From: Aureibaculum luteum
Lineage (GTDB): Bacteria; Bacteroidota; Bacteroidia; Flavobacteriales; Flavobacteriaceae
Direction: 5' to 3'
Assembly (NCBI RefSeq): GCF_003449015.1
Contig: NZ_QRGD01000012.1
Coordinates: forward strand, 1-64,000
Length of the DNA stretch: 64,000 nucleotides
A program made the position numbers and the translations under genes. The notes under the pieces were generated by a model that worked only from the letters and a program-made list of their open reading frames with translations, searched no databases and had not been told where the DNA came from. The stretch's first letter is position 1; every line of letters begins with the position of its first letter. Positions 34,457-57,199 of the stretch are shown here, piece by piece.

Positions 34457-34464
34457 TATTTTTG
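34457..34464 (+). promoter_or_regulatory. -7 promoter element TATTTTTG overlapping the guaA start region
   Basis: It is a perfect TAnnTTTG match, ending only three bases before the ATG at 34468. The transcript should start at or very near the start codon, so guaA is a leaderless-mRNA candidate. Confidence 0.6.
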
Positions 34465-34467
34465 CAG

Positions 34468-36000: not shown

Positions 36001-36030
36001 TTCCGTTTTTAAATAGATTAATTAATTACG

Positions 36031-38166: not shown

Positions 38167-41100
38167 ATGCTGTTTATCAGAAAAAAACATTCTTACCATT
38201 TATTAATAATATTGTTTTTCTTCACATTTTATAATTCATTTTCTCAAGAGAACATTAATTCTAACCGTGACTTTACTCCTTTACAAATTTGGGAATCTGG
38301 ATTACCATATATAGAAAATTTCACATCAGATGATTATAAAAGTAACCCTCAAAATTGGGACATCTTGGAAGGGAATGACGGTTTAATGTATTTTGGAAAT
38401 ACAGACGGAATTGTTCAATTTGACGGAAGTAGTTGGAGTACCATAAAATTTGAAAATAAAAATTTAATTAGATCATTAACTAAAATAAATGATACGATAT
38501 ATTTTGGAGGGACAAATGAGCTAGGCTATCTAAAACCAGATGAATTGGGGCAAATGCGTTTACATTCTTTAATGGAACAGTTAGAATTGACAAATCGGAA
38601 ATTTGGAAATATTTGGACTACAATTGCACTAAATAATGAAGTGTTTTTTATGTCACAGAAATATCTTTTTAGATGGAATGGGGAACATTTAAAAACGTGG
38701 GGATTTGAATCTAAATTTGGAGGAATTTTTAGAATAAAAGACACATTATTTGCAGAAATTAAAGGGATTGGTATACATAAAATTGTGGGTGATTCCCTTG
38801 TTTTAATTCCAGGTGGAGATGTTTTAAAAAATAATATTTCAAAAGTAAATGTGATATTACCTCATCAAGATAATCAAGTTGTAATAGTTACAGCTAATCA
38901 AGGTCTTTTGTTATTTAATGGTAAAACAACTACTCCGTTTAATAAAAGTAGTAATGAAATTTTTTTAAAACATCCAATATATAAAGGGATCCTGTTATCT
39001 AACGGAGATTTTGCAATGGCAACAACTTCCTTTGGTCTTTATATTGTTGATGGTAAAACTGGAAAAATAAAGCAACGGATTGGGAAAAAACATGGTCTCA
39101 TAAGTGATGTTTTGTTCTGCGTTTATGAAGATAGTAATGGTTCAATTTGGGTTGGGAGTGATAATGGTATATCTAAGATTGATTGGGCATCTCCGTTTAG
39201 AAGTTTTAATGAATTAAACGGATTAACTGAAAGAGTGAGGTCAGTTAGTTATCATAATAATACTTTCTTAGTTGATAGTAAGGGGTTATATCAATTAGAA
39301 AAACAAGGTTTGACAGCAAGTAACAAAGAACCTTATTTTAATAAAATTGACGGCATAGACAATAGCATTAAATTCATTATTTCATTAGAAAAAGGATTAT
39401 TAGCTTTTCATTCTGAATATATCTACAAAATAAATGAAAATAGTAAAGCTCAATTTATAAAAAAAGAAAGTTGGGCATTAACATCTCTATTAAAAACCAA
39501 ATCGCCTAATTCAAAGGTATACGCAGGAACAATTGAGGGTAAGTTATTTGACGTTAACTTTGTAAATAATAAATGGTTTAAAAAATTACTTCTCCAGATT
39601 GATGGCGGTATAGAAGGAATCGTAGAAGAACCTAACAAGAATATCTGGCTTCAAACTTATCATAAAGGACTTTATCATATTAACAAAATTAATTCTGGTT
39701 TTAATATAAAGCATTATGATACGTTGTCTGGACTTCCTTCTATGAGTTATAACTTTCCATATGAATTCAATAATAAAATATACGTAACAACACAAAATGG
39801 GATGTATCATTATAATAGAAAAGAAGATACCTTTGAAAAAGATACTATTTTAACAAGTCAATATGATAAATCTGTAGATGCTTATGGTTTTATGGGAATG
39901 GACAGCAATGGTACTATTTGGCAAACCGTTAGGGCTGGTTTTAAAAATAAAATCTACAAATTTTCCGAAAATGAATTCTCAGAATTATATGAATACAATC
40001 TTTTCAATGATTTTTCAACTTATAGTATGGAATTTTTGGAAGATATTGTTCTCTTTACAGGACCTAAAGGTATACTTCTCTATAATCAAAATAAAACGAG
40101 ATTATCCAAGAAAAACCTAACTGCCAAGTTGAGAAAGGTTTGGGTTAATAATGATTCTTTAATCTATACAGGTTCTAACATTCATAGAACCAAGGAAATT
40201 GTTTTTAAAATTCCATTTAAAAACAATGCGTTAAAATTTGAATATTCACTTCCATATTACACCAAATCTGAAAACAATACGTATCAATATATCTTGGAAG
40301 GTTTTGACAAGGATTGGTCATCTTGGACTAAGGAAACCAAAAAAGACTATACCAACATACCAGAAGGAGACTATAGTTTTAAAGTGCGTTCGAAAAATGT
40401 TTTTAATGATATAAGTAAGGAAGATAGTTATTCATTTACCATTTTACCACCGTTGCATAGAACATGGTGGGCATATTTATTGTATAGCATACTAGCATTT
40501 ACAATTGTGGCCGTATATTCTAAGTGGAGGTCTAATGAACTAAAGAAAAAAAATGAGACATTAGAAAATACTATTAATAAACGTACCCTTGAAATACGAC
40601 AAAAAAATGTACTGTTAAACCACCAAACCGAACAACTGGAATTATTGAATGATTCAAAAACAAAACTATATTCGAATATCACTCATGAATTCAGAACTCC
40701 ATTAACGGTAATTCTAGGGATGACTGAAATACTCAAAGCAAATGTACTTACAAAAAGTATTGAAGGTACTGATACTTCTTTGGAAATGATTCGCCGTAAT
40801 GGCAAAAACTTATTGCAATTAGTCAATGAGATGTTAGATTTAGCAAAAGTAGAAAGTGGCTCTATGGAGTTGAATCTGGTGCAGACTGATGCCATACCAT
40901 TTGTAAAGTATCTAAGTGAGAGCTTTCATTCTTTGGCCGAAGCAAAGAAAATAAATCTCACTGTTTATTCTGAAATTGATAAGCTAGTAATGGATATTGA
41001 TGTCAATAAGATGGCATCCATTATGTCTAATTTACTATCAAATGCTATAAAATTCACAGAGGTTAACGGTAAAGTAATCGTACATCTCAACAAAATTAAG

Positions 41101-42198
41101 ACAAATGACATTAGTTTTTTCTCAATAAAAGTAAAAGATAATGGCTTGGGGCTCGCAGAGGATGATATTGTAAATTTATTCGACCGATTTTTTCAAGTTG
41201 ATAATGAGTCGTTTAATGGGAGAAAAGGCACCGGAATTGGACTTTCCTTGGCTAAGGAATTTGTGGAGTTAATGACAGGAACTATTGAAGTAAAGAGTGT
41301 TTTGGGCAAAGGAAGCACCTTTATCGTTCAAATACCAATTACTAATAATGCAGTTAAAACCGTAGAAGGTAAAATTACGATTGAACAGCCTATAAAGAAA
41401 AGTTTGAATATTACAAAAACAGAATTGTCATATTTCGACGATAGTTCTCTTTTACCTTTAGTACTTATTATTGAAGATAATGAGGATGTTGCTCATTATT
41501 TGATGACCTGTTTAAAGGGGAAATACCAAACCATGCATGCCATAAATGGTAATATCGGAATAGAAATGGCATATGAAAAAGTACCAGATATTATTATTTC
41601 CGATGTTATGATGCCTGAAAAAGATGGTTTTGAAGTCTGTGATACGTTAAAAAGAGACGTTCGCACTGATCATATCCCCATTATACTTTTAACGGCGAAG
41701 GTTACTACAAAAGATAGGTTGACAGGACTTTCGTATGGAGCGGATGCTTATTTAGCAAAACCTTTTAATGAAAAGGAATTATTTATTCGATTAGATCAAT
41801 TAGTTTTAGTTCGGAAAAAATTGATTAGTAAACTTGAAAAAAATGGTTTTTCTATAGTGTTGAATGAGAAATCCGAAAACCCTCAAACCAAATTTTTACA
41901 GCAAATACTTAATAATATTCATAAAAATTTAGACAATGCTAATTTCGGACCAACGCAATTAGCCAAAGAAATGTGTTTAAGTGAATCTCAGATCTATAGA
42001 AAACTAAAGGCCATTACAGATAAATCTACCGCAGTTTTTATTCGTTCTGTTAGGTTGCAAAAGGCCAAAGAATTAATTGAATCTTCACATAAAACCGTTT
42101 CAGAAATTGCTTATGAAGTCGGTTTTAAAGATCCTTCCTGGTTTAGTCGTGCATTTAAAGAAGAATTTGGATGCTCACCTATTGGAATCCGTAAATAA
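38167..42198 (+). CDS. Hybrid two-component system regulator (HTCS)
   Basis: The 1343-residue protein joins all parts of a two-component system. Signal peptide (cleavage near S-F-S-Q); two beta-propeller regions with Reg_prop-like repeats (about 40-660; G-S-I-W-V-G-S-D-N-G-I); Y_Y_Y domain (about 690-760); one membrane segment (about 773-792); HisKA with H840 (N-I-T-H-E-F-R-T-P); HATPase (about 935-1055); receiver with D1146 (I-I-S-D-V-M-M-P); C-terminal AraC-type HTH (about 1240-1343). HTCS proteins sense periplasmic ligand and activate adjacent genes. The next operon lacks CAZymes, so the ligand is probably not a standard polysaccharide. The 38-base elements at 42271 and 55562 are candidate targets. 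Confidence 0.97.
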   Translation: MLFIRKKHSYHLLIILFFFTFYNSFSQENINSNRDFTPLQIWESGLPYIENFTSDDYKSNPQNWDILEGNDGLMYFGNTDGIVQFDGSSWSTIKFENKNLIRSLTKINDTIYFGGTNELGYLKPDELGQMRLHSLMEQLELTNRKFGNIWTTIALNNEVFFMSQKYLFRWNGEHLKTWGFESKFGGIFRIKDTLFAEIKGIGIHKIVGDSLVLIPGGDVLKNNISKVNVILPHQDNQVVIVTANQGLLLFNGKTTTPFNKSSNEIFLKHPIYKGILLSNGDFAMATTSFGLYIVDGKTGKIKQRIGKKHGLISDVLFCVYEDSNGSIWVGSDNGISKIDWASPFRSFNELNGLTERVRSVSYHNNTFLVDSKGLYQLEKQGLTASNKEPYFNKIDGIDNSIKFIISLEKGLLAFHSEYIYKINENSKAQFIKKESWALTSLLKTKSPNSKVYAGTIEGKLFDVNFVNNKWFKKLLLQIDGGIEGIVEEPNKNIWLQTYHKGLYHINKINSGFNIKHYDTLSGLPSMSYNFPYEFNNKIYVTTQNGMYHYNRKEDTFEKDTILTSQYDKSVDAYGFMGMDSNGTIWQTVRAGFKNKIYKFSENEFSELYEYNLFNDFSTYSMEFLEDIVLFTGPKGILLYNQNKTRLSKKNLTAKLRKVWVNNDSLIYTGSNIHRTKEIVFKIPFKNNALKFEYSLPYYTKSENNTYQYILEGFDKDWSSWTKETKKDYTNIPEGDYSFKVRSKNVFNDISKEDSYSFTILPPLHRTWWAYLLYSILAFTIVAVYSKWRSNELKKKNETLENTINKRTLEIRQKNVLLNHQTEQLELLNDSKTKLYSNITHEFRTPLTVILGMTEILKANVLTKSIEGTDTSLEMIRRNGKNLLQLVNEMLDLAKVESGSMELNLVQTDAIPFVKYLSESFHSLAEAKKINLTVYSEIDKLVMDIDVNKMASIMSNLLSNAIKFTEVNGKVIVHLNKIKTNDISFFSIKVKDNGLGLAEDDIVNLFDRFFQVDNESFNGRKGTGIGLSLAKEFVELMTGTIEVKSVLGKGSTFIVQIPITNNAVKTVEGKITIEQPIKKSLNITKTELSYFDDSSLLPLVLIIEDNEDVAHYLMTCLKGKYQTMHAINGNIGIEMAYEKVPDIIISDVMMPEKDGFEVCDTLKRDVRTDHIPIILLTAKVTTKDRLTGLSYGADAYLAKPFNEKELFIRLDQLVLVRKKLISKLEKNGFSIVLNEKSENPQTKFLQQILNNIHKNLDNANFGPTQLAKEMCLSESQIYRKLKAITDKSTAVFIRSVRLQKAKELIESSHKTVSEIAYEVGFKDPSWFSRAFKEEFGCSPIGIRK

Positions 42199-42368: not shown

Positions 42369-44504
42369 ATGGTAAAATCAAAAAAATATTTACTTAAATT
42401 AAGTGTCATTTCATTTTTTATTCTTTTTTCGATTGGAGCTAGAGCCCAAAATTTCTCTGGACTTCAAGGAAAAGAATTAACTAAAATTGATGATACAGCT
42501 TTTGCACTTCTACAAATTGGTGCCAAAAAATTAGATGGACAAATAGATAAAGTGGCAGTGTTATATTCTGGAGAGAAAACACTAAAATTGGAAATACATC
42601 ATTCTGGTATAGAATCTACATGGGTTAGTTACAAAATAATTGACGCGGAAAAAAAATCACTTAATGGAATTAAAAATGTAAAATACACTTTAATAGAAGG
42701 TGAAAAACCATTACAAGTTGAGATTACATTAGAGGATAATTTGCCAGAAGGCACGGAAATTCAATCTTCCTATTTACAGATTGATGTAAAAAAGGAGAAA
42801 AAGAATTTTTTACCTACGACTTTCTTATACAGTTTGGAAAAATTATGGAAAACTGAGATTAATGCAGAAAATTTAATAATTCCAATAAAATTAGAGCCCA
42901 TTGGAAGTGCAAAAGATTTAAGAGCTGATAATCACGTGTTTGTAATACCCTATAAACGCCCCACTTTTAATAGTAGTTATATGACTACTTCTACTGGAAC
43001 CGCAACAAATGAAAATGGAAGTAATCGTGAAACAGCACCGGTTATAAGAGAAGGAGTTACAAGAAGGAATGAAATTGTACCAGCTGTTAGAGGAAGAGCT
43101 ACAAGAAAAAATGAAGTTGTACCAGCTGTAAGAGGGAAAGCAACAAGAAGAAATGAAACTGTTCAAGCGGTTAGAGGTAAAGATCCAGCTAAAACACTTG
43201 AAGTATTAGGGCCAGATAATTTAAATCAAATATCTCTATGGGATAATTTGGCTACTGATGTTAATTTTGAATTTCCTTTTGATATTACTAATATCCAAAT
43301 GAATATATATTCAGATAAGAATTTGAACTCTGGTGTATTTTACTATTTACCAGAGGCTTATCATTTGCAATGGAATACTAATACTGGCTATCAATTTGAT
43401 ATGCTATATGGTACCGCTTCATCTTCTGAAATCTCTGGAAATGTTAATATGTCAGGAGTACTAACCCCTAATATTTCGAAAAAAGAGAGTGATTTAATAA
43501 AAGCACTATTAAATTCTTATATAAATAACAATAAATCAATTTATACAAATGATAATATTGATTTAAAAATTATACCAATAAAATCAACACCTACAATATC
43601 CTTATCTGAAGGACTTCAAAGTGCATATGAGATCCCAGATAAGGATATAAATGTTACAATGTCGTCAACTATAAATAATCCAATAAACGTGTCTTGGAAG
43701 GTTGATAATAGAATAAAAGAAGAAATACAAGTTGCATTATCAGAAAACGGTGGTGGTATTTTTGGAAACATGTCGCTTACACCAGATAGCGAGACCATAC
43801 CTGAACAAAAAATACCAGTAAGAATTACATTAGCAGATACAAGGACTATTGGTAAATTTATTTTACAGCCAAACAACTGGAGAACTGAAAATTGGGTTAA
43901 TGAGACACCTTTTCCACTAAAACTAAAGTATATACATGCATTAGTTATTGGTGAAGAAAATGGTCGCAATTTACCAATGGTTTATTCCTGGGGTTTAAAC
44001 AATACGGAGGTTCCTTCAAAATCTAAAGCGAAATTTAATGGTGCATTGATGCCGAAATGGATTGAATCAAAAACAGAACGGATCTGGATAGATTATTCAA
44101 TTGATGAATGTAATTCTTGTATGAATGAAATTATGAATGAGCTAACAGGAGGTACTTCAGGCAGTAATACTAAAACTGTCAATTTTAAAAGTTTTAAAGT
44201 ATTAGAAACTACAAAAGCAGCATTTTTAGAAATACAAATAAGAAGTAAACAAGCAGATCCAAAAGCAAAAAATATAATAAAATTAACATCTATAATAATA
44301 GAAAAGGATCTGTCAGCAATATCAGCTGGTCCGTTTTATTTGCCAGAAGGTTCGGAGCTTAAATATGAGTATAAATTGAAACTTGTAATGTCCGATGGTA
44401 AGATACATGAATCAGATGATTGGATATCATCAGATGAAGTGGATGTATATATTGGTATGCATACACTTAAAGAAACTATTAGTAATCTTCCCGAATTTCA
44501 ATAA
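42369..44504 (+). CDS. Secreted protein, first gene of the HTCS-linked operon (divergent paralogue)
   Basis: The 711-residue protein has a signal peptide (cleavage near A-R-A-Q, residue 27) and a beta-rich N-terminal domain (30-190). A linker follows with four 14-residue tandem repeats (219-274; unit R-N-E-V-V-P-A-V-R-G-K-A-T-R), then a second beta-rich half (about 295-711). Around 322-375 it has F-Y-Y-L-P-E-A-Y, Y-Q-F-D-M-L and L-T-P-N-I-S, which align with the N-terminal block of the four larger paralogues downstream. A C-x2-C pair (E-C-N-S-C) occurs near residue 580. I recognise no known domain. It heads the operon under the 42271 operator; the next gene starts seven bases after its stop. 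Confidence 0.8.
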   Translation: MVKSKKYLLKLSVISFFILFSIGARAQNFSGLQGKELTKIDDTAFALLQIGAKKLDGQIDKVAVLYSGEKTLKLEIHHSGIESTWVSYKIIDAEKKSLNGIKNVKYTLIEGEKPLQVEITLEDNLPEGTEIQSSYLQIDVKKEKKNFLPTTFLYSLEKLWKTEINAENLIIPIKLEPIGSAKDLRADNHVFVIPYKRPTFNSSYMTTSTGTATNENGSNRETAPVIREGVTRRNEIVPAVRGRATRKNEVVPAVRGKATRRNETVQAVRGKDPAKTLEVLGPDNLNQISLWDNLATDVNFEFPFDITNIQMNIYSDKNLNSGVFYYLPEAYHLQWNTNTGYQFDMLYGTASSSEISGNVNMSGVLTPNISKKESDLIKALLNSYINNNKSIYTNDNIDLKIIPIKSTPTISLSEGLQSAYEIPDKDINVTMSSTINNPINVSWKVDNRIKEEIQVALSENGGGIFGNMSLTPDSETIPEQKIPVRITLADTRTIGKFILQPNNWRTENWVNETPFPLKLKYIHALVIGEENGRNLPMVYSWGLNNTEVPSKSKAKFNGALMPKWIESKTERIWIDYSIDECNSCMNEIMNELTGGTSGSNTKTVNFKSFKVLETTKAAFLEIQIRSKQADPKAKNIIKLTSIIIEKDLSAISAGPFYLPEGSELKYEYKLKLVMSDGKIHESDDWISSDEVDVYIGMHTLKETISNLPEFQ
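43023..43190 (+). repeat. 42-bp (14-residue) tandem repeat inside the coding region
   Basis: Four in-frame units of 14 codons encode the basic, proline- and valine-containing repeat R-N-E-x-V-P-A-V-R-G-x-A-T-R. The first copy (E-T-A-P-V-I-R-E-G-V) is the most diverged. It links the two halves of the secreted protein and may vary in copy number between strains. Confidence 0.8.
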
Positions 44505-44511
44505 ATTAAAA

Positions 44512-45639
44512 ATGTCAAAAAGTGGATACATATTAATAGTAGCATTATTAGTGAGTTTTAATGCATTTTCACAACCTAAAAGAAGTTCTAGGCGAGTAAT
44601 TGACAATGTTATTATATATCAAGATGTTACAAAGAAGACACACTATTATTATGTGGCTTATGGTTTAAAATTAGTCAAAAATAAAGAAGGTAAGCCGAAT
44701 TTTAAATTTATTCAAATGAGGCATACGGGTACAAAAGTAACTGAAAATGAAAATTCCAATAGTTTTAAAAGTTTAATAAATTTTAGAGTAGCAATAAATA
44801 CCCCAACTAAAAATACCATAAATGCAATCATCTCAAAATTAATAAATGCAGGTGTTAAAATTCAAGAATTAAAACCAATTGCCATTAGCAACATAGATAC
44901 AGAACTAGAGTACGTTACAAATAAGAAAACAACTGATACTTTATCTGAAAATTTTAAAAATGGTTTTTTTGAAAACACAGAAAATAGCGGGGCAGATCAA
45001 AACTGGAAAGAACGCTATTTTACATTACGATTAGAGACTGAAGATGCTCAATTATTCAAAGAGAGTTTAGAAAATAATAGACCAACTATAAGTCTAAATT
45101 ATACTTTTTTAGCAAAGTTTTCAGGAGGTGATTTAGATGAAGTTATAGCTTCAGGTTCTACAGAACTTATTAAGGAATTTGAAAACGAGAACAGTGAAAA
45201 TACCATAGATGTAAATGTTTTATCAGAAGCAATTGTAAAAAATGGATCACTTTCCATTGATATCAATACCGATAAGTGGCCAGACTTAATAAAACAAGTA
45301 GATCTTAATGAACGGCTACCTTCTGAATATGCAGCCTTAGATGTTTATTGTTATGATTTCAATAATATGATAAGAGATGACCTATCCGCAAAAATTGTTG
45401 AAATTAAGGCAAAAAGTGTTAATGGAAAAGAAGTTGTTTTTAAAAATGTCTTTTATAAAGAACAACCCGATATCTATGCAAAAACCATAAAATTTATCTA
45501 CGCTGTAAAATTAAGTGAACCTTATGAGTATAGAGTAACAGAAATATATAATGATGGCACTTTAAAAAGAGAAGAATGGATCGAAAAAAAGCAATGGAAC
45601 GGTATATTAGATATTACCAGTGAAATTGAAAGTAATTAG
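44512..45639 (+). CDS. Secreted protein, short divergent member of the operon family
   Basis: I place the start at the ATG at 44512, seven bases after the previous stop. It gives a 375-residue protein with a signal peptide (hydrophobic core, cleavage near A-F-S-Q); the longer in-frame extension overlaps the upstream gene and looks non-natural. The block Y-Y-Y-V-A-Y-G-L-K-L ... K-E-G-K-P-N-F-K-F-I matches the family N-terminal motif, but the L-P is changed to V-A. A later part (I-V-E-I-K-A-K-S-V-N-G-K-E) only weakly recalls the family C-terminal block. Likely a shortened relative; function unknown. Confidence 0.78.
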   Translation: MSKSGYILIVALLVSFNAFSQPKRSSRRVIDNVIIYQDVTKKTHYYYVAYGLKLVKNKEGKPNFKFIQMRHTGTKVTENENSNSFKSLINFRVAINTPTKNTINAIISKLINAGVKIQELKPIAISNIDTELEYVTNKKTTDTLSENFKNGFFENTENSGADQNWKERYFTLRLETEDAQLFKESLENNRPTISLNYTFLAKFSGGDLDEVIASGSTELIKEFENENSENTIDVNVLSEAIVKNGSLSIDINTDKWPDLIKQVDLNERLPSEYAALDVYCYDFNNMIRDDLSAKIVEIKAKSVNGKEVVFKNVFYKEQPDIYAKTIKFIYAVKLSEPYEYRVTEIYNDGTLKREEWIEKKQWNGILDITSEIESN

Positions 45640-45655
45640 ATAACAATAATGAATT

Positions 45656-47494
45656 ATGAAATATAATAAGACGCTAATTGTAACCTTAATATTATTTTGT
45701 TTTGGTTTAACATATTGTTTTTCACAAGTCAATTATGATGAAGGAAGAAGAACAATAAATGGGATTCAATTGTTACAAGATAGTAATGATAAAAAAGCAT
45801 TTTATTTTTTACCAGACTACCCAAGAATTGCTGTTAATAAAGCTGGTGATTTTGAACTGATGGGTATCAAATATATTGGAGAGAATGGAGAATCTAGTGG
45901 AGGATTATTTCATGCCCTTATTCAATTTGATTTACCTGAAGAGGTTTTGTCTACCATAGAAAAAAAACTTAAATCACTAGTTCCTGGAGCTAGAATTGTT
46001 GGTGCGGTTCCATTATTACAGGAAACCCAAAGCGGCGAAAATGTAAGTACCGGTTTCAAGGTCATATCATCAATATTAACAAATACGGAAGGTGAAAATC
46101 CTTTTACTTCAAATCTAATTGCCGCTGGCCCTGCACTTACGCAAGGAGGAAAAACAGCATTTGCTGCAAAATTGAATATGAATGGAGCGACATTATTATT
46201 TAAATCTCTTGAAAGTGGAACATCAGATGTTTCGGTAGTTGTAAGCGGATACTATGAAGCAAAGGTAAAAGCCTATAACGCAGTGGTTACTGCTGAAATG
46301 TCTACAATTTATAAGCACTTTAGTGAGATAAAAAATATTCAAGGAGGATTTACCAAACGGCAATTAAGAGATATTACTGATAAAATGATACAAGATCAAT
46401 TAATTAGCATTGATGTCTTTGATCGTTCTGAGGGGTTAGGTGTAAAAACCAGTGACATGGATGGAATATTAAATATAATAACAGAAAAGCTTACAGATGT
46501 AATGTTTAATGTAGAAATAGGATGGGCAAAGCAACCTGTTAAAGAAACCGCTGTTGAGAAAGGTCAACTTAAAGGGCGTCAAAAAAGAGGTTGGTTCAGT
46601 AGTGTTTTTGGTGGAACAAAAATAGGCCTGACAGGGGTAAGCATTTCTGGGAAAACTAGAAACGACAATTATGTTACTGATGATCAATTGGTAATTAAAA
46701 ATAGAGAAGATATCAAAATAAATAAGTTCTATTTAAATTTAAATAAATCTACAACTATTAAGGTGCCAGTTACTTCTTCTGGCAATATTGGTGGACTCTA
46801 TAATATTCTAAAAGAGGAAGCAGGTGATAAGTATTTTAAAATTGTGAATTTAAATGACTCCGATTTTATGATGAGAGATATTATGTTTCTTATAGACTTA
46901 GCTTATGTTGAATCGTTTAGTGAAATTTTAAATTCTGTTACTGTTTCTTTTAAAAAATATTATAAAGCCGGTCAAGATGAGATAACAAAAGATATTATTT
47001 TTAACAATACAGACTTGGCAAATGGCACTAATTATAAAACGCTTTCATACCCACGACTAGGATTAAAAAAAGCAAACTGGTTAGATTATGAATATAAACT
47101 GAATTGGAGTTTAAAAGGGAAGTCAGAAACAATTCAAATTCCTGAGAATAAAGATGAATGGTTAAAATCTAATACGCCATCTATTGTATTAACCCCTCCA
47201 TTTAAAAAAAGAAATATAGAAATTGATGCTGACAAGAGTAGTTTTAGTGCATTAGGAATTAATTCTTGTACTATACGGTTTTTTGTGATTCTTAACGGAA
47301 AACCAACACCATATAAAGTACAAGTATTAAGAGCTGATGATGTTGAAAGTACCACGAAAATAAATGTGTACCATGATGAAAATGAGCCAATTATTTATCA
47401 AGTCACTTGGTATATGGGCAGTGAAAAAATAGAAGAAGAGGCCAAGCCGTTAAATGATGAAAATTATCTGTTTTTGATGACTCCAAACCAATAA
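45656..47494 (+). CDS. Secreted protein of the operon family (paralogue C)
   Basis: The 612-residue protein has a signal peptide (cleavage near C-F-S-Q, residue 24). The N-terminal family block is clear: F-Y-F-L-P-D-Y-P, then F-E-L-M-G-I-K-Y, G-G-L-F-H-A-L and, later, G-A-R-I-V-G-A-V-P. A middle region (about 140-400) differs between members. The C-terminal block starts M-M-R-D-I-M-F-L-I-D and continues L-N-S-V-T-V-S-F-K-K, then T-P-P-F-K-K-R-N-I-E-I. The fold is probably beta-rich and extracytoplasmic. No catalytic motif was recognised. Co-transcribed with its neighbours (16 bases after the previous stop, eight before the next start). Confidence 0.82.
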   Translation: MKYNKTLIVTLILFCFGLTYCFSQVNYDEGRRTINGIQLLQDSNDKKAFYFLPDYPRIAVNKAGDFELMGIKYIGENGESSGGLFHALIQFDLPEEVLSTIEKKLKSLVPGARIVGAVPLLQETQSGENVSTGFKVISSILTNTEGENPFTSNLIAAGPALTQGGKTAFAAKLNMNGATLLFKSLESGTSDVSVVVSGYYEAKVKAYNAVVTAEMSTIYKHFSEIKNIQGGFTKRQLRDITDKMIQDQLISIDVFDRSEGLGVKTSDMDGILNIITEKLTDVMFNVEIGWAKQPVKETAVEKGQLKGRQKRGWFSSVFGGTKIGLTGVSISGKTRNDNYVTDDQLVIKNREDIKINKFYLNLNKSTTIKVPVTSSGNIGGLYNILKEEAGDKYFKIVNLNDSDFMMRDIMFLIDLAYVESFSEILNSVTVSFKKYYKAGQDEITKDIIFNNTDLANGTNYKTLSYPRLGLKKANWLDYEYKLNWSLKGKSETIQIPENKDEWLKSNTPSIVLTPPFKKRNIEIDADKSSFSALGINSCTIRFFVILNGKPTPYKVQVLRADDVESTTKINVYHDENEPIIYQVTWYMGSEKIEEEAKPLNDENYLFLMTPNQ

Positions 47495-47502
47495 GAAAAA
47501 AG

Positions 47503-49242
47503 ATGAAACTAAAATATATAAACATACTATTCTTGAATTGCCTATTCCTGTGTTCTTTGCAAGGACAAAAGATATTGATAGATCAGGGAATACAGGCAGA
47601 TGGTCTTTTGTGTTTTCCTGTATATAAACAGCCAAATACATTTAAGTATTTACCATTGAATGCTGGTTTTTCTCTTACTAAAGAGGGTTTACCAACATTT
47701 TCTTATATGCGTTATATTATTGAAAAACCTACAAAAGAAGAATCAAGTAATTCTATTACAAAAGCTGATGGTGGAGGAATTTTACACTTCTTAGTTCAAT
47801 ACAATACACCAGTAGAAAAAATAGCAGAAGCAAAAATATTTTTACAAAAAAAATTCAACACGAAGGATATCAAAATTAGTGGGCCAATTCAATTTAATAA
47901 GGGAAGATATACTATGGTGTCTTCTATATTAAACTCAAAATCTGGAAAAAAGGAAAAAAGAGTGATAGAGTCTGGAGAGACCCCAATTACAGAAAGAACC
48001 AATCTCGCAGCTACTTTTAACGTAGATCCTTTAAAGTCTAAATTATTATTGGAAAGTTTAAAAATGGCAACATCAGATGTCTCTTTAGTTTTTGAATTAT
48101 CATTTTCCGGATTGACTGATAGTTATGAAGCTGAGGTTGATATTGATTGGTCTGAAATAAAAAAAAGCAAAAAGTTTGATGCTGGCGGTAGTGCCTATTT
48201 TATTGGAGCTGACATTGGTTTAGCATTTGACAGTATGCGAAGAGATAATGTAATAAAACTAACAAGCGTAGGCTCTGATTCAGCTATGGAAAGTTTGGTA
48301 CAAACTATATATGACAAACTTATTGGTTTAATGTTTACTAAAGTGCCTCTAGAACAAGTATCAGAAGAGAATAAAGGAGGTATTGAAGAGTCAATAGGAG
48401 CATTAATAGGTCCAAATGGAGCCTTAGGAAGTCGAAATACAACAGGTTTTGGGTTCAATGTGGCTTATAAACACAAAGAATATAAAACTACAGGTAAAAG
48501 CCATTTAGTATTTAAAGGGAGAAGTGATGTTAATAGAACTCATTTTATCACTTTTAATATGGGAAGCTTGTATAAAGAATATGGAAGTAATCAAAATATT
48601 TTCAAGGAAGTACCACTTTGGGACCCCACTTTTCAGCAACGTGAAATCTTTATAGGTTTGGATGGTGATGTAAAGAAAGAGTTCGAGAAAATGATAAATA
48701 GTGTTACAATAAAAATGAAGAAACAGCATCAAGATGGTACAGAAACTATTAAAGAAGTTTTTTTAACAAAAGATACATATCTAAAAAAAGATGGAAAAGT
48801 TGGAATTTCCTATCTAAATCATAAGGACACTGACATTGATATGTGGTTAACGTATCAATATCAATCCATTTGGAAGTTTGTTGGGGGTGGTTCTTATAGT
48901 AGTGATTGGAAAAAACAATCTACCGCTATGATAAATTTATTTGTACCATTTAACAGAAAAACAATTGAAATAATGGGAGAATTAGAAACCCTAAGAATTC
49001 AAAACATTGTGGCAACTTCGATCAATATTTCCTATGATTTTTTTGGTGAAAAACGAAATGAAAGAGTAAAAGTATTTCCGTCTGATACACTTAGTGAAAA
49101 ATCATTTGAAGTCACTTTACCTCGTGGTCAGGATACGATAAACTACTCCATGATGTGGTTTGTTAAAGGGGAGCAACCCATAAAAAAAGCAGGAATAAAT
49201 ACACATGGAATTTTATTTATTGATGAAATACCAAAAGAATGA
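47503..49242 (+). CDS. Secreted protein of the operon family (paralogue D)
   Basis: The 579-residue protein has a signal peptide (cleavage near C-S-L-Q-G-Q). The N-terminal block reads F-K-Y-L-P-L-N-A, K-E-G-L-P-T-F-S-Y-M and G-G-G-I-L-H-F-L. The C-terminal block reads Q-Q-R-E-I-F-I-G-L-D-G, I-N-S-V-T-I-K-M-K-K and V-P-F-N-R-K-T-I-E-I. It ends in H-G-I-L-F-I-D-E-I-P, nearly the same as the end of paralogue F (T-G-I-L-L-V-D-E-L-P). It starts eight bases after the previous stop. No known domain was recognised. Confidence 0.82.
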   Translation: MKLKYINILFLNCLFLCSLQGQKILIDQGIQADGLLCFPVYKQPNTFKYLPLNAGFSLTKEGLPTFSYMRYIIEKPTKEESSNSITKADGGGILHFLVQYNTPVEKIAEAKIFLQKKFNTKDIKISGPIQFNKGRYTMVSSILNSKSGKKEKRVIESGETPITERTNLAATFNVDPLKSKLLLESLKMATSDVSLVFELSFSGLTDSYEAEVDIDWSEIKKSKKFDAGGSAYFIGADIGLAFDSMRRDNVIKLTSVGSDSAMESLVQTIYDKLIGLMFTKVPLEQVSEENKGGIEESIGALIGPNGALGSRNTTGFGFNVAYKHKEYKTTGKSHLVFKGRSDVNRTHFITFNMGSLYKEYGSNQNIFKEVPLWDPTFQQREIFIGLDGDVKKEFEKMINSVTIKMKKQHQDGTETIKEVFLTKDTYLKKDGKVGISYLNHKDTDIDMWLTYQYQSIWKFVGGGSYSSDWKKQSTAMINLFVPFNRKTIEIMGELETLRIQNIVATSINISYDFFGEKRNERVKVFPSDTLSEKSFEVTLPRGQDTINYSMMWFVKGEQPIKKAGINTHGILFIDEIPKE

Positions 49243-49334
49243 AAAAAATGCAATTCCTCTGAAATATACTTTATAATAAAACAATAAAATTATAAATATT
49301 AAGACAAATTTAATTTCACATTAAAAATTCAATT

Positions 49335-51260
49335 ATGAAAATAACTTTAAAACTAGCAGTTATATTTATCAGCCTTATAGTGTATACTCATAACATTAAA
49401 GCACAAATATTAGATAGTGATAACAAGTTAACCATTGTGCTAAAAGATGGACTACAAGTGACATTGTTAGGACAGTCAATCAGCATGTCTGATCAGAAAT
49501 CTAAAAATTATTTCTACTTACCTACTAATCCTCATTTATCTTTAGATAAAGAGGGTACACCAAAATTTATGCTCTTAAAATACATGACAGAAAAAGGAGC
49601 CAATGAAGGAGGTGTAAGTGGTGCCTTATTTCATATGCTAATGGAATGGGGTTTGACACCAAAGCAACAAACAGAGTTAGAAGGGATTCTTAAAATCGGA
49701 GGACAAGGAGCAAGAAAAGGTAGCATTTTAAAAGGAGCAGTTGATGTAACCCCAGATGGCGATAATTCATTTCGAATAATCTCTGCATTGTTATCCGATC
49801 CAAATAGAGCGGGAAAAGTTGTTATGTCAAAAAGAGCTCCTATAATGCCAGGAGCTGCATCTTCTTTTGCTTCTAAAATGGATAATATAGAAGCACAATT
49901 AATGATAGCATCTTTAGAAAAAGATCGCTCTATTGCAGATTTATCGTTAGAATTATCTTTTAAGTATGCTGTACAAATGCCTGCTGCTAAAGGAAGGGCA
50001 ATAATTAATTGGGAGAAAATGCATACGCAGTTTAAACAAGACTCAGCTTCGTACTCGAATAAGAAAAAAGGCCATTGGTGGTGGAAAAAAAACACAAGAA
50101 ACTATGATGAGGTTCACAAGTTTATAGAAACACTTGAGGAGAACAAGATTATAGAGCTAAAATGGGAAGAAAACATCGCTGACGATAGAATAAGTCAAAT
50201 GCGAGAAGCATTCTTTCAGTTTTTCTTGGATAAAATGTCAAATGTTGAAGAAGAGAATACTACCTCACCACCTACAGAGCAAGAACAAGAGGCGATGCCA
50301 GATATAAAATACGGAAAAAAATATACGTTCAATAAAACCTATTTCGAATCTAATTTTCAGAAAAACACACAGGTATTTGATTTTGATGCCAAATTGGCTG
50401 TAAATAAATATTTCTCTGTAACAGGTAATTTAGCAGACTGGTACGATGCTGTAAGGGATAATGAAAAATGTGTAAATGAGGTTACTTTAAATGACCCCTT
50501 TTTCGAGCACAGAACTATCGACTTTATATTAGACTTAGATGCCATAGATATTTTCGAAAAAGAAATTAATTATGTTACTGTTAATGTACGCAAAAAGCGA
50601 AAATCAGGCAATGATTTTAATAAACACTTTACAATGGATCTAGCATATTTAAAGGAGAATGGACCCACTAAATCAATCAGTTATGCAATGGGAAGCGATG
50701 TGGATGGAGAGGCTTATGAGTATAAAATACAAAGTAGTTTACGAGGCGGTAAACTATTCCCTGAAAACCCAACCTATAAAAAAGCTGATTTGGCAGGCAT
50801 CACCTTTTCAGCCCCAATTGAAGGAAGAACAGTAGAATGCGAAGCTGATCTTGAAGAGTTATCTGCTTTGGGAGTAGTTAGAGCAACTATTCAACTTAGG
50901 TATTACAAGTTTGGCAAGGAAGTTCAAACAAATGTTCCCATAACAGTATCTAAAGGTGTCTCTATTATGGAAAAAACAATCTTTATGGATGCAGATACAC
51001 AAGGTTATGCCTACCAATTAATAGTAGATTATAAAGACCCTTCAAAAGGTAAAATGGCCTTTGGGTGGCAACCCAAGATTAATGATGATTATGTATACGC
51101 GGCAATACCAACAGAAGTGTTAGATGAAAATGTAGCATTTATTGAAAAGGTAATTGAGGCAGGTAAAGTAATTGTAAAACCTTCAAGTGATGGCAGTATT
51201 AATAAAGCCTCTGGAATATTAGATCGATTTAAAGATGTAATAAATATTGTAAAAAATTAA
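49335..51260 (+). CDS. Secreted protein of the operon family (paralogue E)
   Basis: The 641-residue protein has a signal peptide (cleavage near N-I-K-A-Q). N-terminal block: F-Y-L-P-T-N-P-H-L-S-L, K-E-G-T-P-K-F-M-L-L-K-Y and G-A-L-F-H-M-L. C-terminal block: E-H-R-T-I-D-F-I-L-D, I-N-Y-V-T-V-N-V-R-K-K and A-P-I-E-G-R-T-V-E. It carries an extra tail of about 60 residues after the block. A 92-base gap precedes it, the largest inside the main part of the operon, but no promoter or operator copy is visible there. Function unknown. Confidence 0.82.
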   Translation: MKITLKLAVIFISLIVYTHNIKAQILDSDNKLTIVLKDGLQVTLLGQSISMSDQKSKNYFYLPTNPHLSLDKEGTPKFMLLKYMTEKGANEGGVSGALFHMLMEWGLTPKQQTELEGILKIGGQGARKGSILKGAVDVTPDGDNSFRIISALLSDPNRAGKVVMSKRAPIMPGAASSFASKMDNIEAQLMIASLEKDRSIADLSLELSFKYAVQMPAAKGRAIINWEKMHTQFKQDSASYSNKKKGHWWWKKNTRNYDEVHKFIETLEENKIIELKWEENIADDRISQMREAFFQFFLDKMSNVEEENTTSPPTEQEQEAMPDIKYGKKYTFNKTYFESNFQKNTQVFDFDAKLAVNKYFSVTGNLADWYDAVRDNEKCVNEVTLNDPFFEHRTIDFILDLDAIDIFEKEINYVTVNVRKKRKSGNDFNKHFTMDLAYLKENGPTKSISYAMGSDVDGEAYEYKIQSSLRGGKLFPENPTYKKADLAGITFSAPIEGRTVECEADLEELSALGVVRATIQLRYYKFGKEVQTNVPITVSKGVSIMEKTIFMDADTQGYAYQLIVDYKDPSKGKMAFGWQPKINDDYVYAAIPTEVLDENVAFIEKVIEAGKVIVKPSSDGSINKASGILDRFKDVINIVKN

Positions 51261-51274
51261 TAAAACTATAAACG

Positions 51275-53449
51275 ATGAAGACCTTATTAAAGTTTTGTAT
51301 AGTGTTAGTCTTAGTGTTTGGATTTAGTGATTCTATGTCTTCTCAAAACAAAAGTGACTTTACAATGCAAATTGTATTAGATAAAAATGTGGATGTAGGA
51401 GGATTAACATTATATCCAGGCGTTAAGGACAAAAATTCTTATTGGTATTTGCCAAATAAATTAAAATTGGCAAATAATGAAGATGGTACTCCTAAATTTT
51501 CTTTAATAAAATGGGTGTATAATGAAGAAAGTGATGCAGGCGAAGGTATTGGCGGAGGTGTACTGCATTGTGTTTTTGGTTTTGAAGTAACTAAAGAAGA
51601 TGTGGAAAAAGCACAAGAAGAGCTAAAAGGGATTAATCCAAAAGGAAAAATTGTCGGTGCCGTTACCTATAAAAGCGGAGTAGTAAATGTTTCTGTTCCA
51701 AAGCTCAATGATCCTGATTCGCATGAATATGTAGGAGAAACGAAAGCACCCATTATGGATAATAGTTTTATTGCTATTAATTTATTATTGGACAAACGTT
51801 CTACCTCTCTGCTTTGGGAGTCTTTTAATACACCCAACCCTGTAGTCACCTTCAATTTCGATATGGTTATTGCAGGCTATAACTCTCCAATAGAAGCATT
51901 AATAATAATTAATTATGATAAAGTATACAATACCAAAAGGTTTAAAGCAGGAATTGCGACTTCTTGGGCCTCAAGTGATATAGATGCACTTGTTAAGGAA
52001 ACAGTAAATAATGGTGCTATTAAAATTAAAAGCATAGGGGCTAATTTTACGTTTGAGTCATCAATAAAGGAGGCCATAAAAGCTGCTAAGGGTGCCTTTT
52101 TTAAAGAAGATATAGATACCGCAATACCTAAAGTGCCATCTAAGTCTCAGAATAAAGCCAAATCTGCTTCACAATTATTAGCAGAGAGAAAAAAAACTGT
52201 AATAAAAGAAAGGGGCGAAATAATAAAAAGGAATAATGCCAAAAAAGATGAAGCTACCAAAAAAAACAAAGCTGCTTTAGAGAAATCGAATAGCGAAAAA
52301 AAGGATGCAGAGAAAGCAATATCAGCGGCAAGAAAAAAAGCAAATGGAGCAAGTGTTGCGGCCGTTAAAGCAACAAAAATAGCAGATAAAAAAGCCGCTG
52401 ACTTAAAAAAAGCAGTTGAAAATAAAAAAATAGTGAACGATAATGATGATGCTCTTGCTTCAGAAAAAGCAAATGCAGCTAAAAAGGTGGTTACGGCAAA
52501 TAAAGAAGCGAAAAAAGCTAAAGAAAGTGCTATTGAGAAAGGGAAATCTGCAGAAAATGAAGCTTCTAAGGCAGAAGCAATAGCAGCAAGTAAGTCTGGT
52601 GATTTGACAAAAATAGCACAAGTTTTCGATGCAGAATTAGAAGAGTTACCGGAAATACCCTCTATACAAATCACGGCATCTTATACTGTCAAGAAAATCA
52701 GAAAAACAGGTATAGATTCAATAAGTTTTAAAGAGAGTCATCCTACTGTCGTTAATGCCCCTTTTGGAGGTAACTTAGAGATAAGTAGGTCAAGTTGCCC
52801 CAAATGTTTTTTAGAAACCAATTTAGACGATGATGTATTTAAACAGCGGGAAATAGTTACAGTATTGGATGGATTAAATGAGAATGATTTTGTTAAATAT
52901 ATCAATTACGGAACAATACAATTACGTAAAAAACATGAATCAGGAAAAGTTACCTATAAACAAATTAGAATTACGCGAAATGAATTTAAAAAAGAAGGCA
53001 ACTTGTTTAAAATGATTTATGGTTGGAAAGGAGATGTCAACAGGTCTAATTGGTTTAATTATGATTATCAGGTTAATTGGAGCTTTTTTGGTGGAAACGA
53101 TATTGAGACAGACTGGTTAAGTACAAATAAAAGTGTCATTACGCTAAGCCCCCCAATTTCTAGACAGGTAATTACTATTCGTGCAGAAAAAGAACTTTTA
53201 ATAGCGAATAAAGTTAGAATTGTAGATGTTAAAGTTTATTATAATTTAGGTGGGAGAGATTTAATAAAATCATTTACTATATATACAAAAGCTGAAGTTT
53301 TAAGTGGGCAATTAGAGTTTATGCTACCTGTTGGAATACAGGTATATGATTACGAAATCACATGGAGACTATCTGGAAATAGAGAGATTAAATCTGGTAG
53401 AAAAACTACAAGTACAGGAATACTTTTAGTTGATGAACTACCCAATTAA
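51275..53449 (+). CDS. Secreted protein of the operon family with TolA-like coiled coil (paralogue F)
   Basis: The 724-residue protein has a signal peptide (cleavage near M-S-S-Q). N-terminal block: W-Y-L-P-N-K-L, E-D-G-T-P-K-F-S-L-I-K and G-G-G-V-L-H-C-V. Unlike its paralogues it has a long lysine/alanine-rich segment (about 290-445; A-A-V-K-A-T-K-I-A-D-K-K-A-A) that should form a rod-like coiled coil, similar in composition to TolA. A C-P-K-C pair follows near residue 510, then the family C-terminal block (K-Q-R-E-I-V-T-V-L-D-G, I-N-Y-G-T-I-Q-L-R-K-K). The rod could span periplasm or bridge to a partner. Confidence 0.85.
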   Translation: MKTLLKFCIVLVLVFGFSDSMSSQNKSDFTMQIVLDKNVDVGGLTLYPGVKDKNSYWYLPNKLKLANNEDGTPKFSLIKWVYNEESDAGEGIGGGVLHCVFGFEVTKEDVEKAQEELKGINPKGKIVGAVTYKSGVVNVSVPKLNDPDSHEYVGETKAPIMDNSFIAINLLLDKRSTSLLWESFNTPNPVVTFNFDMVIAGYNSPIEALIIINYDKVYNTKRFKAGIATSWASSDIDALVKETVNNGAIKIKSIGANFTFESSIKEAIKAAKGAFFKEDIDTAIPKVPSKSQNKAKSASQLLAERKKTVIKERGEIIKRNNAKKDEATKKNKAALEKSNSEKKDAEKAISAARKKANGASVAAVKATKIADKKAADLKKAVENKKIVNDNDDALASEKANAAKKVVTANKEAKKAKESAIEKGKSAENEASKAEAIAASKSGDLTKIAQVFDAELEELPEIPSIQITASYTVKKIRKTGIDSISFKESHPTVVNAPFGGNLEISRSSCPKCFLETNLDDDVFKQREIVTVLDGLNENDFVKYINYGTIQLRKKHESGKVTYKQIRITRNEFKKEGNLFKMIYGWKGDVNRSNWFNYDYQVNWSFFGGNDIETDWLSTNKSVITLSPPISRQVITIRAEKELLIANKVRIVDVKVYYNLGGRDLIKSFTIYTKAEVLSGQLEFMLPVGIQVYDYEITWRLSGNREIKSGRKTTSTGILLVDELPN

Positions 53450-53475
53450 TAATATAAATTTTAAAACAATTAATT

Positions 53476-54159
53476 ATGAAACGAAAAATCACATTAATTT
53501 TAGGAGCAATACTTATTATAAGTATTTCACAAATTCAAGCACAAAAAACAATTAATTTTCGATTAATCATTAACGATCACGAAGGTAAACCTTTAACAGG
53601 AATGTTCAGAATAGAAACTTCTGTAGAAGTAGATGGTTATGATGATACAAGTTACAAAGATATCTCTGTTTATAATGGGAAAGCATTCTTCCCAGTTGAG
53701 ATGGAAATAAATGAAGAAGATTCAGGAACAATACTTGTGGCTTATTATCCTGCAGAGGAGCCTTACAATAGAATTCTAAGTACTCCAATTTTGGATGATG
53801 ATAAATATAGATTGGAGTCAGAAATAATTGAGTTTACACTTCCAGATAGAAATGAACTTTTCTTTGAATTATCTTTTGGTTACAACGAACAAGAAATTAT
53901 AAGCTCAACAAAGGTTGGAGCTGAACGCGAAGCTTCAAGATCTGAAGAAACAACAGAAATGATGAAGACTTATGCCGAAGCAGGCCTTGATATTTGGGTT
54001 TTTTCTGCAAAAGGAGGAGGAGAAATGGAAGATAGTGAGACGGAAACAAATACCGTTAGAGATAGAGAAATGACAGAAGACGAAGTGAGTAAAAAGTATA
54101 TTGTTAAAATTCCAACAGGTGGGTTAATAATTGAACAGACGAATAAACCTTCTGAATAA
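53476..54159 (+). CDS. Secreted small protein closing the main operon
   Basis: The 227-residue protein has a signal peptide (cleavage near Q-I-Q-A-Q) and a beta-sandwich-like N-terminal part (D-H-E-G-K-P-L-T-G-M-F-R-I-E, resembling a carboxypeptidase-regulatory or prealbumin-like domain). A charged helical stretch (about 145-165) and an acidic C-terminal part follow. It does not show the family blocks. It starts 26 bases after paralogue F and probably belongs to the same transcript. A weak hairpin at 54183-54201 follows. Confidence 0.75.
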   Translation: MKRKITLILGAILIISISQIQAQKTINFRLIINDHEGKPLTGMFRIETSVEVDGYDDTSYKDISVYNGKAFFPVEMEINEEDSGTILVAYYPAEEPYNRILSTPILDDDKYRLESEIIEFTLPDRNELFFELSFGYNEQEIISSTKVGAEREASRSEETTEMMKTYAEAGLDIWVFSAKGGGEMEDSETETNTVRDREMTEDEVSKKYIVKIPTGGLIIEQTNKPSE

Positions 54160-54182
54160 TATTACACTTTTAAGGATTGAGG

Positions 54183-55627: not shown

Positions 55628-55718
55628 TAATATGATTTTAGAATAGTATTTCTTGCTTTCTAAGGCTTCAGTAAAACTTAAAAGTATAAACTATATAAAT
55701 TACAAAAAATTAAATATT

Positions 55719-56456
55719 ATGAATAAAATACTAGTTATCCTATACGGAATAGTAGCTTACATCGTCTTTTTAGTCGCATTTTTATATGCTGTAGGGTTTG
55801 TAGGAAATATTATAGTGCCTAAATCTATTGATACCGGTGTTGATGGGCCTTTGTTACAATCCGCCTTTATAAATATTGGATTGCTCAGCTTATTTGCCAT
55901 GCAACATACTATAATGGCACGTCCCGCTTTTAAAAAGTGGTTGAGTAATTATGTAAATCCAGCTATTGAACGAAGTACATTTGTTTTACTATCTAGCCTT
56001 ATTTTATTGTTAATGTATTGGAAATGGCAACCTATGACGGAAATTGTCTGGAACACTGATGGGCCAATTTCTTTGATCATTACCGTTATATTTTTTTCGG
56101 GTTGGTTAATCGTGCTCTTATCAACTTTTATGATCAGTCATTTTGAATTATTTGGGCTTAGTCAGATTTACGAAAACTTTAAAGATCGGAAATTGACCTA
56201 TCCGCCTTTTCAGGTAAATTATTTTTACAAATTAATAAGACATCCTATGATGCTCGGTTTTATTATTGCCTTTTGGGCTGCTCCTACAATGACTCTTGGA
56301 CGCCTTTTGTTTGCAGTTGTAACCACAACATATATATTCGTTGCGGTCAAATTACTAGAAGAAAAGGATTTAAAAAAGATAATTGGAGAAGAGTATGAAG
56401 AGTATCAAAAAGAGGTGCCAATGATAATTCCATTTTCTAAATTTAAAAAAAGTTAA
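55719..56456 (+). CDS. mddA: Methanethiol S-methyltransferase-like membrane protein (MddA/NnrU family)
   Basis: I use the ATG at 55719, which gives a 245-residue protein with about five transmembrane helices and the family pattern G-F-V-G-N-I-I-V-P-K-S-I-D, A-M-Q-H-T-I-M-A-R-P-A-F-K, E-R-S-T-F-V-L and R-H-P-M-M-L-G-F, which is the SAM-binding region of isoprenylcysteine-methyltransferase-like enzymes. MddA converts methanethiol to dimethyl sulfide; this sequence fits MddA better than generic NnrU, but activity is not proven. An earlier in-frame start at 55653 would add a polar extension and is rejected. It is the first gene under operator copy 2. Confidence 0.78.
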   Translation: MNKILVILYGIVAYIVFLVAFLYAVGFVGNIIVPKSIDTGVDGPLLQSAFINIGLLSLFAMQHTIMARPAFKKWLSNYVNPAIERSTFVLLSSLILLLMYWKWQPMTEIVWNTDGPISLIITVIFFSGWLIVLLSTFMISHFELFGLSQIYENFKDRKLTYPPFQVNYFYKLIRHPMMLGFIIAFWAAPTMTLGRLLFAVVTTTYIFVAVKLLEEKDLKKIIGEEYEEYQKEVPMIIPFSKFKKS

Positions 56457-56649
56457 AAGTGATTGCATATAACCTATGTTGATCTTTTGAAGAGATAAAA
56501 TAATCACACCGATAAATATTACGTGACATAGGGACAATTATAATTTAATCCCGTCCTAATTGATTGGAATTTTAAATTGAAAATAATTAATTTAATATTC
56601 TTAAGAATTCAATAACCAATTTTTACAAACAATATAAAATTTAAAACAC

Positions 56650-57165
56650 ATGGAAACAAAATTTCCACTTGCTTTACTCTTAATTTTCGGAATTTTAGTA
56701 ATAGGATGTAAAGAAAAAGAACAAAAAGTAGTCGTTGAAGAAGTTAAAATTGATTTAGTAAACGATGAATTTCCAGAAGCAAAAAAGGAAATAGTCGAAA
56801 CCTTTGAGGCCATTGCACAAAGTTTAAAGGATGGTGATATGGATAAATTAATTTCCTTCCATGCTTATGGACCAAAGTTTACTGAATTTAAAGATGGTGC
56901 ACTTCGTAATGGAGGAGAAGCAAATGAAACCTATGAACGTAAAGTTTTTAGTGGTGTTACAGAAGTAGTGAAATTTGATGCAAAAGATATGCAGATTGCA
57001 GTTTACGGAGACGTCGCTAATGTAACATTTCATTCTGATTTCCAATTAAAATTTGGTGAGGATCTCGTTGTTGTTAATGATCAAATAACCTTACTATTTG
57101 TAAAAACAGAAGAAGGTTGGAAAATAGTTCATGAACATCATTCTCCATTGAAGAAAGAAGATTAG
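56650..57165 (+). CDS. SnoaL-like (NTF2-fold) lipoprotein
   Basis: The 171-residue protein has a lipoprotein signal ending V-I-G-C20, then an acidic linker and an NTF2-like domain (about 45-165): helical start (E-T-F-E-A-I-A-Q-S-L-K-D-G-D), aromatic-lined strands, and the closing E-E-G-W-K-I-V-H-E-H-H-S. NTF2-like or SnoaL-like proteins bind small ligands or act as cyclases or isomerases; no catalytic assignment is possible. It follows mddA after a 193-base gap, in which I see no second operator copy, and is close to the TPR gene (34 bases). Confidence 0.82.
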   Translation: METKFPLALLLIFGILVIGCKEKEQKVVVEEVKIDLVNDEFPEAKKEIVETFEAIAQSLKDGDMDKLISFHAYGPKFTEFKDGALRNGGEANETYERKVFSGVTEVVKFDAKDMQIAVYGDVANVTFHSDFQLKFGEDLVVVNDQITLLFVKTEEGWKIVHEHHSPLKKED

Positions 57166-57199
57166 GTCAAATAGTTATTAATTTCCAAAACGAGCAATT

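Follow-up and report, generated by a model that had tools for sequence, protein, structure and literature searches.

Polymorphic toxin systems combine one conserved carrier with varying effectors, the toxin being a C-terminal domain of the carrier (PMC3482391). The gene set considered here, from Aureibaculum luteum (positions 1 to 64,000 of contig NZ_QRGD01000012.1, a stretch of 64,000 nucleotides hereafter called the window), may follow a similar plan, except that the effectors would have genes of their own and that several paralogues, encoded by the genes P0001–P0006 in what we call slots 1–6, would make up the carrier. There is also some likeness to the NTP-dependent conflict systems with effector-associated domains (EADs), caspases and trypsins, as described in PMC7159879: relatives of the set lie near trypsin, EAD1 and STAND genes at one locus (L025; L numbers denote loci and G numbers genomes) and near caspases at two (L018, L085). 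Unlike those systems, however, the core family has no clear Pfam or PADLOC match, EAD and NTPase genes occur at one locus and the window lineage looks exported. HBL-like genes lie by one family protein in each of L042 and L094, recalling the tripartite pore-forming toxins of the HBL/NHE type, but the family proteins scanned had no HBL match, and HBL clusters exist alone. Toxin complexes and contractile injection systems share with our set the idea of a multi-subunit carrier, and leaderless subunits encoded next to wall hydrolases add to the likeness; yet none of their families was over cut-off in the family proteins scanned, a Tail_P2_I match of a 278-aa protein in L018 being weak (E 0.003, under cut-off). 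Our tentative interpretation is that the set encodes a multi-subunit carrier for exchangeable effectors.

The first-pass annotation of the window had described six related secreted proteins, four of them large and sharing an N-terminal and a C-terminal block. Its gene positions held when the translations were checked, its motifs agree with invariant columns of the alignment, and the four large proteins (genes starting at 45656, 47503, 49335 and 51275) are true paralogues. In a BLASTP comparison of the eight proteins of 42369–55349 (P0001–P0008) with each other, these four were joined in 6 of 6 pairs, with best segments at E 4e-28 to 2e-11 (the search space being the eight proteins). The weaker N-terminal block ascribed to genes 44512 and 42369 was borne out as well. 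The former matched the N-terminal block of 51275 and 47503 (E 2.6e-4 and 1e-3, respectively); the latter gave nothing below E 1 against the large paralogues and holds a divergent, weak internal copy that emerged with the profiles described below.

The annotation had recognized no family, and neither did Pfam, NCBIfam, PHROGs, PADLOC or the PDB sequences yield a clear match. For P0001–P0008, nothing exceeded the curated cut-offs of Pfam and NCBIfam, the library match of lowest E being that of P0002 to DUF6155 (20 bits, against a cut-off of 27). At E up to 0.1, PHROGs and PADLOC returned for the same proteins just the match of P0002 to two PHROGs (0.043 and 0.047), and PADLOC gave one weak CARF match (0.014) to a leaderless relative. 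Among PDB sequences, a profile of 16 members (A4) found one chain at E 0.58 and a profile of 12 (A5) none up to E 10. Sorting domains, the signal of type IX secretion system (T9SS) cargo, were not listed for P0001–P0008, whether Por_Secre_tail or those of NCBIfam, nor was any effector domain fused to the carrier in these eight proteins, where an undescribed one would escape. Nothing in the literature searched named the family or the multi-slot design, and neither matches any system that we tested.

The four large paralogues begin with a domain of ~200 aa (N-domain), which in an AlphaFold2 model of P0004 (slot 4) is followed by two C-terminal sandwiches. A hidden Markov model (HMM) of the N-terminal region, built from 25 members, recognized the following proteins on which it had not been trained: Hx (E 4.6e-17), a protein of L042 (5e-16), L043 sequences (6e-14 and 2e-12), P0002 (1.2e-11), the truncated slot 2 of L015 (9e-11), a 600-aa protein of L024 (6e-7, in two weak pieces) and the 278-aa protein of L018 (3e-5). 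The trimmed N-domain HMM gave 78 matches, the 25 training members among them. Hx, C4 and a 229-aa protein of L082, at 209–243 aa, are close to a minimal N-domain.

Slot-1 proteins carry the divergent copy internally. Among 18 chosen proteins, the best internal match scored above all 100 residue shuffles in 13, while in the remaining five 1, 1, 2, 5 and 9 of the 100 shuffles were equally good; in the N657, L086 and L087 proteins the match lies away from the aromatic-P site. When the HMM was rebuilt from the stronger matches, P0001 reached E 4.9e-5 (18 proteins), its best stretch scoring 12.3 bits against 8.5 for the top of 1,800 shuffles, and R7 and the N657, L086 and L087 proteins were not distinct from background.

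In the leaderless lineages, subunits begin directly with the N-domain. Their long members contain one to four repeats ~95 aa apart, with E <1e-3 in 13 of 14 (up to five repeats if weak ones are included; C1 has weak repeats only), as judged by an HMM seeded and trained on those same 14 proteins. This HMM barely picks up the C-terminal modules of the window itself; equating them with the leaderless repeats therefore draws on alignment and inference. In fold searches, the C-terminal modules showed likeness to Fn3 and adhesin domains at background level.

The annotation had also proposed a local expansion by duplication, which the phylogeny contradicts as a recent event: each window paralogue clusters with its slot counterparts in other genera and in a Saprospiraceae metagenome-assembled genome (MAG), implying an old set whose parts are inherited together. 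The tree comprised 44 N-domains chosen from the 78; the partial slot 2 of L015 was left out, and the slot-2 relative of L084 is absent because it has no N-domain match. Six loci were represented for each of slots 3, 4, 5 and 6, three for slot 2 and two for slot x, and every slot fell on one side of a branch, the slot 5 clade with support of 94/93, below the tool's star. The six slot groups required 5 changes, the minimum possible, against a mean of 18.7 after shuffling, and none of 200 shuffles was as low. The six loci represent at least five genera (window g1, g337, g413, g367 and the MAG). For slot 1, the orthologue of P0001 is S1 of L015 (E 2e-68), with relatives in L082 and L083.

The slots are co-inherited as one unit, and gene order is in keeping with this, 3-4-(x)-5-6 being collinear throughout L015, L016 and L082. 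The arrangements are 1-2-3-4-5-6 in the window and L083, 2-3-4-5-6-1 in L084, 3-4-5-6-peptidase-196 aa-1-2 in L015, 3-4-x-5-6-peptidase-1-2 in L082 and 3-4-x-5-6-metallopeptidase-like in L016. Leaderless subunits of L018 and L024 likewise pair in the tree, 737 with Q3 and 761 with Q5 (both starred). Different paralogues that are fixed and co-inherited form the pattern expected of a hetero-oligomer, and the earlier proposal that these proteins are subunits of one assembly gains plausibility from the separate clade that each slot forms over six loci.

The protein family is uncommon. On gene content and the named relatives, the bacterial family of the window is taken as Flavobacteriaceae and its phylum as Bacteroidota. 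In the window's own genome a four-row profile matched the window locus only, and it was positive in 2 of 60 relatives and 2 of 395 genomes of the phylum (own genome counted in both). With a 16-row profile, 12 of the 397 genomes from the window's family were positive, and with a leaderless profile 7 of 395 phylum genomes, again with the own genome included. A scan of genome contigs added Hyunsoonleella pacifica (L016) and the Saprospiraceae MAG (L015), and tblastn with leaderless relatives, which occur in the phylum of the window, reached plasmids of the Alphaproteobacteria Pararhizobium, Paracoccus (counted once for two records of the same length) and Azospirillum and of one cyanobacterium, Calothrix, so that three phyla are named in the records. 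We examined 23 loci (window, L015, L016, L017, L018/L019, L024, L025, L042, L043 and L082–L095); a further positive near a contig end, G431, lies outside them. We read it as a rare, horizontally moving gene set.

The window locus and its surroundings are listed in Table 1. Its right-flank lipoprotein and TPR genes are also present in G007, G009 and G016, and the NnrU-like gene in G007 too; G005 and G002, with only the TPR gene in the stretch, were uninformative. Between the flanks, the window holds the hybrid two-component system (HTCS) gene and P0001–P0008, G009 two HTCS genes with a different variant of the family (N650, N657), and G007 (TPR protein 97% identical) a different HTCS plus three other genes, while G016 is an empty site with ~350 bp from the LysM gene to the lipoprotein gene. 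This hotspot of the genus therefore has four states in four informative genomes, one of them empty. At the G007 hotspot, a protein with a Vitellogenin_N domain (L038, 9223–10899; Pfam 3.7e-12, over cut-off) adjoins the HTCS gene.

The link to an HTCS, put forward in the first-pass annotation, stood in part. In the window, the Pfam domains of the gene next to the operon are those of an HTCS, which lies 170 bp upstream of slot 1. The association recurs in the genus (L017) and beside another variant: in L087, an HTCS 35% identical to P0009 over 1,417 aligned positions lies upstream of N650/N657 relatives, and in L086 one judged by eye does so, unlisted by the BLASTP search that gave that of L087. 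The gene tables of L015, L016 and L018, on the other hand, contain no HTCS. The HTCS is likely the regulator of the window set.

Table 1. The gene set and its flanks in the window
Feature	Position	Strand	Remarks
Left flank of hotspot: guaA and LysM-type protein (named by eye)	34462..37929	+	Same in G007 and G016; end of LysM gene in G009
HTCS sensor/regulator	38167..42198	+	Pfam over cut-off: Reg_prop, Y_Y_Y, HisKA, HATPase, receiver, AraC-type helix-turn-helix
Slot 1, P0001, 711 aa; long, N-domain internal	42369..44504	+	Orthologue S1 in L015
Divergent internal N-domain of slot 1	43302..43679	+	aa 312-437
Slot 2, P0002, 375 aa	44512..45639	+	N-domain HMM E 1.2e-11; one clade with slot 2 of L082 and L083
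Slot 3, P0003, 612 aa	45656..47494	+	N-domain 45725-46324 and C-terminal block; slot clade of 6
Slot 4, P0004, 579 aa	47503..49242	+	N-domain 47569-48174; two beta-sandwiches ~48637-49233 (AlphaFold2); slot clade of 6
Slot 5, P0005, 641 aa	49335..51260	+	N-domain 49431-50036; slot clade of 6 (94/93, unstarred)
Slot 6, P0006, 724 aa	51275..53449	+	N-domain 51368-51940, Lys/Ala-rich linker, C-terminal block; slot clade of 6
P0007, 227 aa, secreted (by eye)	53476..54159	+	Homologue in L086
P0008, 349 aa	54300..55349	+	Co-directional, 140 bp downstream; no family over cut-off
Right flank of hotspot: NnrU-like, small lipoprotein and TPR protein (named by eye)	55653..58930	+	In part in G007, G009 and G016

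Beyond the subunits, comparing neighbourhoods brought up peptidases, wall hydrolases and toxins at other loci, invisible to a reader of the window, which moves the earlier picture of an assembly or binding set toward an effector-associated system. An effector-like neighbour over Pfam cut-off (peptidase, caspase, wall hydrolase or binding, PLD or HBL-type toxin) was present at 11 of the 23 loci, in a scan of 78 proteins that took in family members and part of the neighbours. These were M43 and C70 (L015), astacin and C70 (L082), two caspases (L018), PG_binding (L085, with two open reading frames, ORFs, 70–75% identical to the L018 caspases), trypsin with EAD1, EAD1, STAND-like AAA, PLD and tyrosinase (L025), HBL (L042), HBL and a CHAT protein (L094), CHAP and PG_binding (L088), M43 (L089), papain and muramidase (L091) and muramidase (L092). 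The L088 CHAP protein has homologues of 74–79% identity in L089, L093 and L095 and a partial one (75%) in L085.

Weaker signs were seen at 6 of the 23: a 720-aa protein of L016 with, by eye, two HExxH motifs (Pfam under cut-off), a nuclease-like match in L043 (NCBIfam 2e-5, under cut-off), Amidase_2 under cut-off in L086 and L087, and, by identity only, the CHAP homologues of L093 and L095. Proteins of 362 aa in L088, L089, L093 and L095 have by eye the look of clan-CD cysteine peptidases; those of L088, L089 and L093 had no Pfam match. Of 249 genomes of the window's family, eight contain C70, always as a single copy; that of G618 lies within the cassette, and none of the remaining seven genomes is among the 12 positive with the 16-row profile.

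On the reading that we favour, a hetero-oligomer would be built from a long slot 1 with an internal N-domain and different slots 2–6 that start with one. The N-domains would probably join the subunits into a mixed complex, and the immunoglobulin-like (Ig-like) modules that end the long slot 2–6 subunits may form its body. In the window lineage, the subunits would be exported under the adjacent HTCS; their Sec-type leader peptides, judged by eye, suggest an assembly outside the cytoplasm. A locus-specific enzyme would be cargo or partner, carried, displayed or released by the assembly, and the peptidases, wall hydrolases and pore formers encoded alongside would be its exchangeable effectors, with antagonism between cells as the probable role. 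The wall hydrolases and the small membrane protein encoded next to leaderless sets would fit a release step or a crossing of the wall. In the window, P0007 and P0008 are candidate effectors. P0007 can be tied to the system because its homologue in L086 (5345–6016, 40% identity, E 1e-41) adjoins N650/N657 relatives and an amidase-like gene; whether P0008 belongs to the set is uncertain. By eye, P0008 (54300–55349) has two Ig-like repeats, its C-terminal part being without a family match.

Several observations weigh against this carrier. Six of the 23 loci, including the window itself, had no recognized effector (window, L017 with an OmpA protein only, L024, L083, L084 and L090, the neighbours of L084 and L090 being unscanned by Pfam). 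The surplus of effector-like neighbours is an impression and not an enrichment measured against matched random neighbourhoods, and the classes are so diverse that several may be chance neighbours. The M43 gene of L089 is on the opposite strand and has its own T9SS tail. When six positive genomes were searched for CHAP, five gave a match, with a cassette match in G659 only (one of its two); the cassette CHAP homologues of G687, G519 and G821 were not reported by this search. Three of 378 genomes had HBL over cut-off: in G730 the family lies next to it, and in G583 and G732 the HBL clusters stand in fetched stretches from which the family is absent.

HTCS genes commonly control polysaccharide utilization loci in Bacteroidota, and the set could thus consist of HTCS-controlled secreted proteins that bind glycans or other nutrients, serving a non-SusCD uptake or attachment, with Ig-like modules that bind the ligand and hydrolases that digest food. 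The background-level Fn3 and adhesin likeness would fit, and astacin, M43 and papain could be digestive; yet P0001–P0008 include no SusC/SusD pair, leaderless lineages with several paralogues exist, the slots are fixed rather than freely duplicated, and HBL, caspase and EAD1/STAND neighbours are unsuited to feeding, which leaves this an unlikely function. Just about as unlikely is a conflict or cell-death system as in multicellular bacteria, its repeat proteins sensing or scaffolding and its caspase, trypsin and papain neighbours executing. The Paracoccus locus with EAD1-trypsin, EAD1 and STAND-like NTPase genes would agree with it, as would the caspase pairs of L018 and, via homology, L085, and systems of this kind are described in PMC7159879. 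Nevertheless, EAD1/STAND genes were found at 1 of the 23 loci, PADLOC gave the single CARF match alone, the window lineage looks secreted, and its genome gave no EAD1 match, although the control of that search also matched nowhere, so that absence is unproven.

More improbable still is a purely structural role, in which the different paralogous subunits would build a surface layer, a pilus-like fibre or a matrix, wall hydrolases would serve insertion and no effector would act: a sporadic, hotspot-borne distribution is odd for a structural layer, and peptidases, HBL and PLD would be needless. The effector carrier remains our preferred, if provisional, interpretation. In its widest form, an undescribed modular machine of at least three phyla, with exported and leaderless forms, that delivers an adjacent effector from fixed slots of a new domain and Ig-like rods, it seems doubtful to us. 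If true, this would be a new class of bacterial effector-carrying assembly, absent from the libraries searched, in which protease, wall-hydrolase, nuclease-like and pore-forming neighbours are swapped naturally. Should the carrier role prove wrong, a paralogous set of several slots and no known domain, conserved across genera and located in hotspots and on plasmids, would still be a clear target.

Some further neighbours deserve mention. HBL-like clusters occur in two genomes of the window's family (L116, 6307–9593; L117, 6322–9332) with no N-domain gene in the stretch; a protein of L116 shares 44% identity with the HBL protein of Azospirillum. Related proteins lie by a family gene at L042 17334–18173, L043 17357–18346 and L094 6713–7645, the Calothrix one with a weak match to DMATS prenyltransferases (NCBIfam 0.018, well below cut-off); another pair, likewise conserved, lies at L042 18161 and L043 18350. 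On the Paracoccus plasmid (L025, 7730–12617), the genes for trypsin with EAD1, an EAD1 protein and a STAND-like NTPase lie directly upstream of several consecutive N-domain genes and may link the family with EAD conflict systems. At the end of the full slot 1–6 set of L083 (5389–8237) are two proteins of 458 and 486 aa, alike by eye and without a Pfam match, that are candidate effectors of no recognized kind. Upstream of the Pararhizobium cluster (L024, 554–4825) is a 1,423-aa protein annotated as cytochrome P450, its second half resembling Dyp-type peroxidases by eye. Finally, a conserved protein of 184–189 aa with a membrane segment by eye (L088, 18052–18621; L085, 14848–15402; homologues in L089, L093 and L095) adjoins leaderless sets that also hold wall-hydrolase-like genes, and possibly has a release function.

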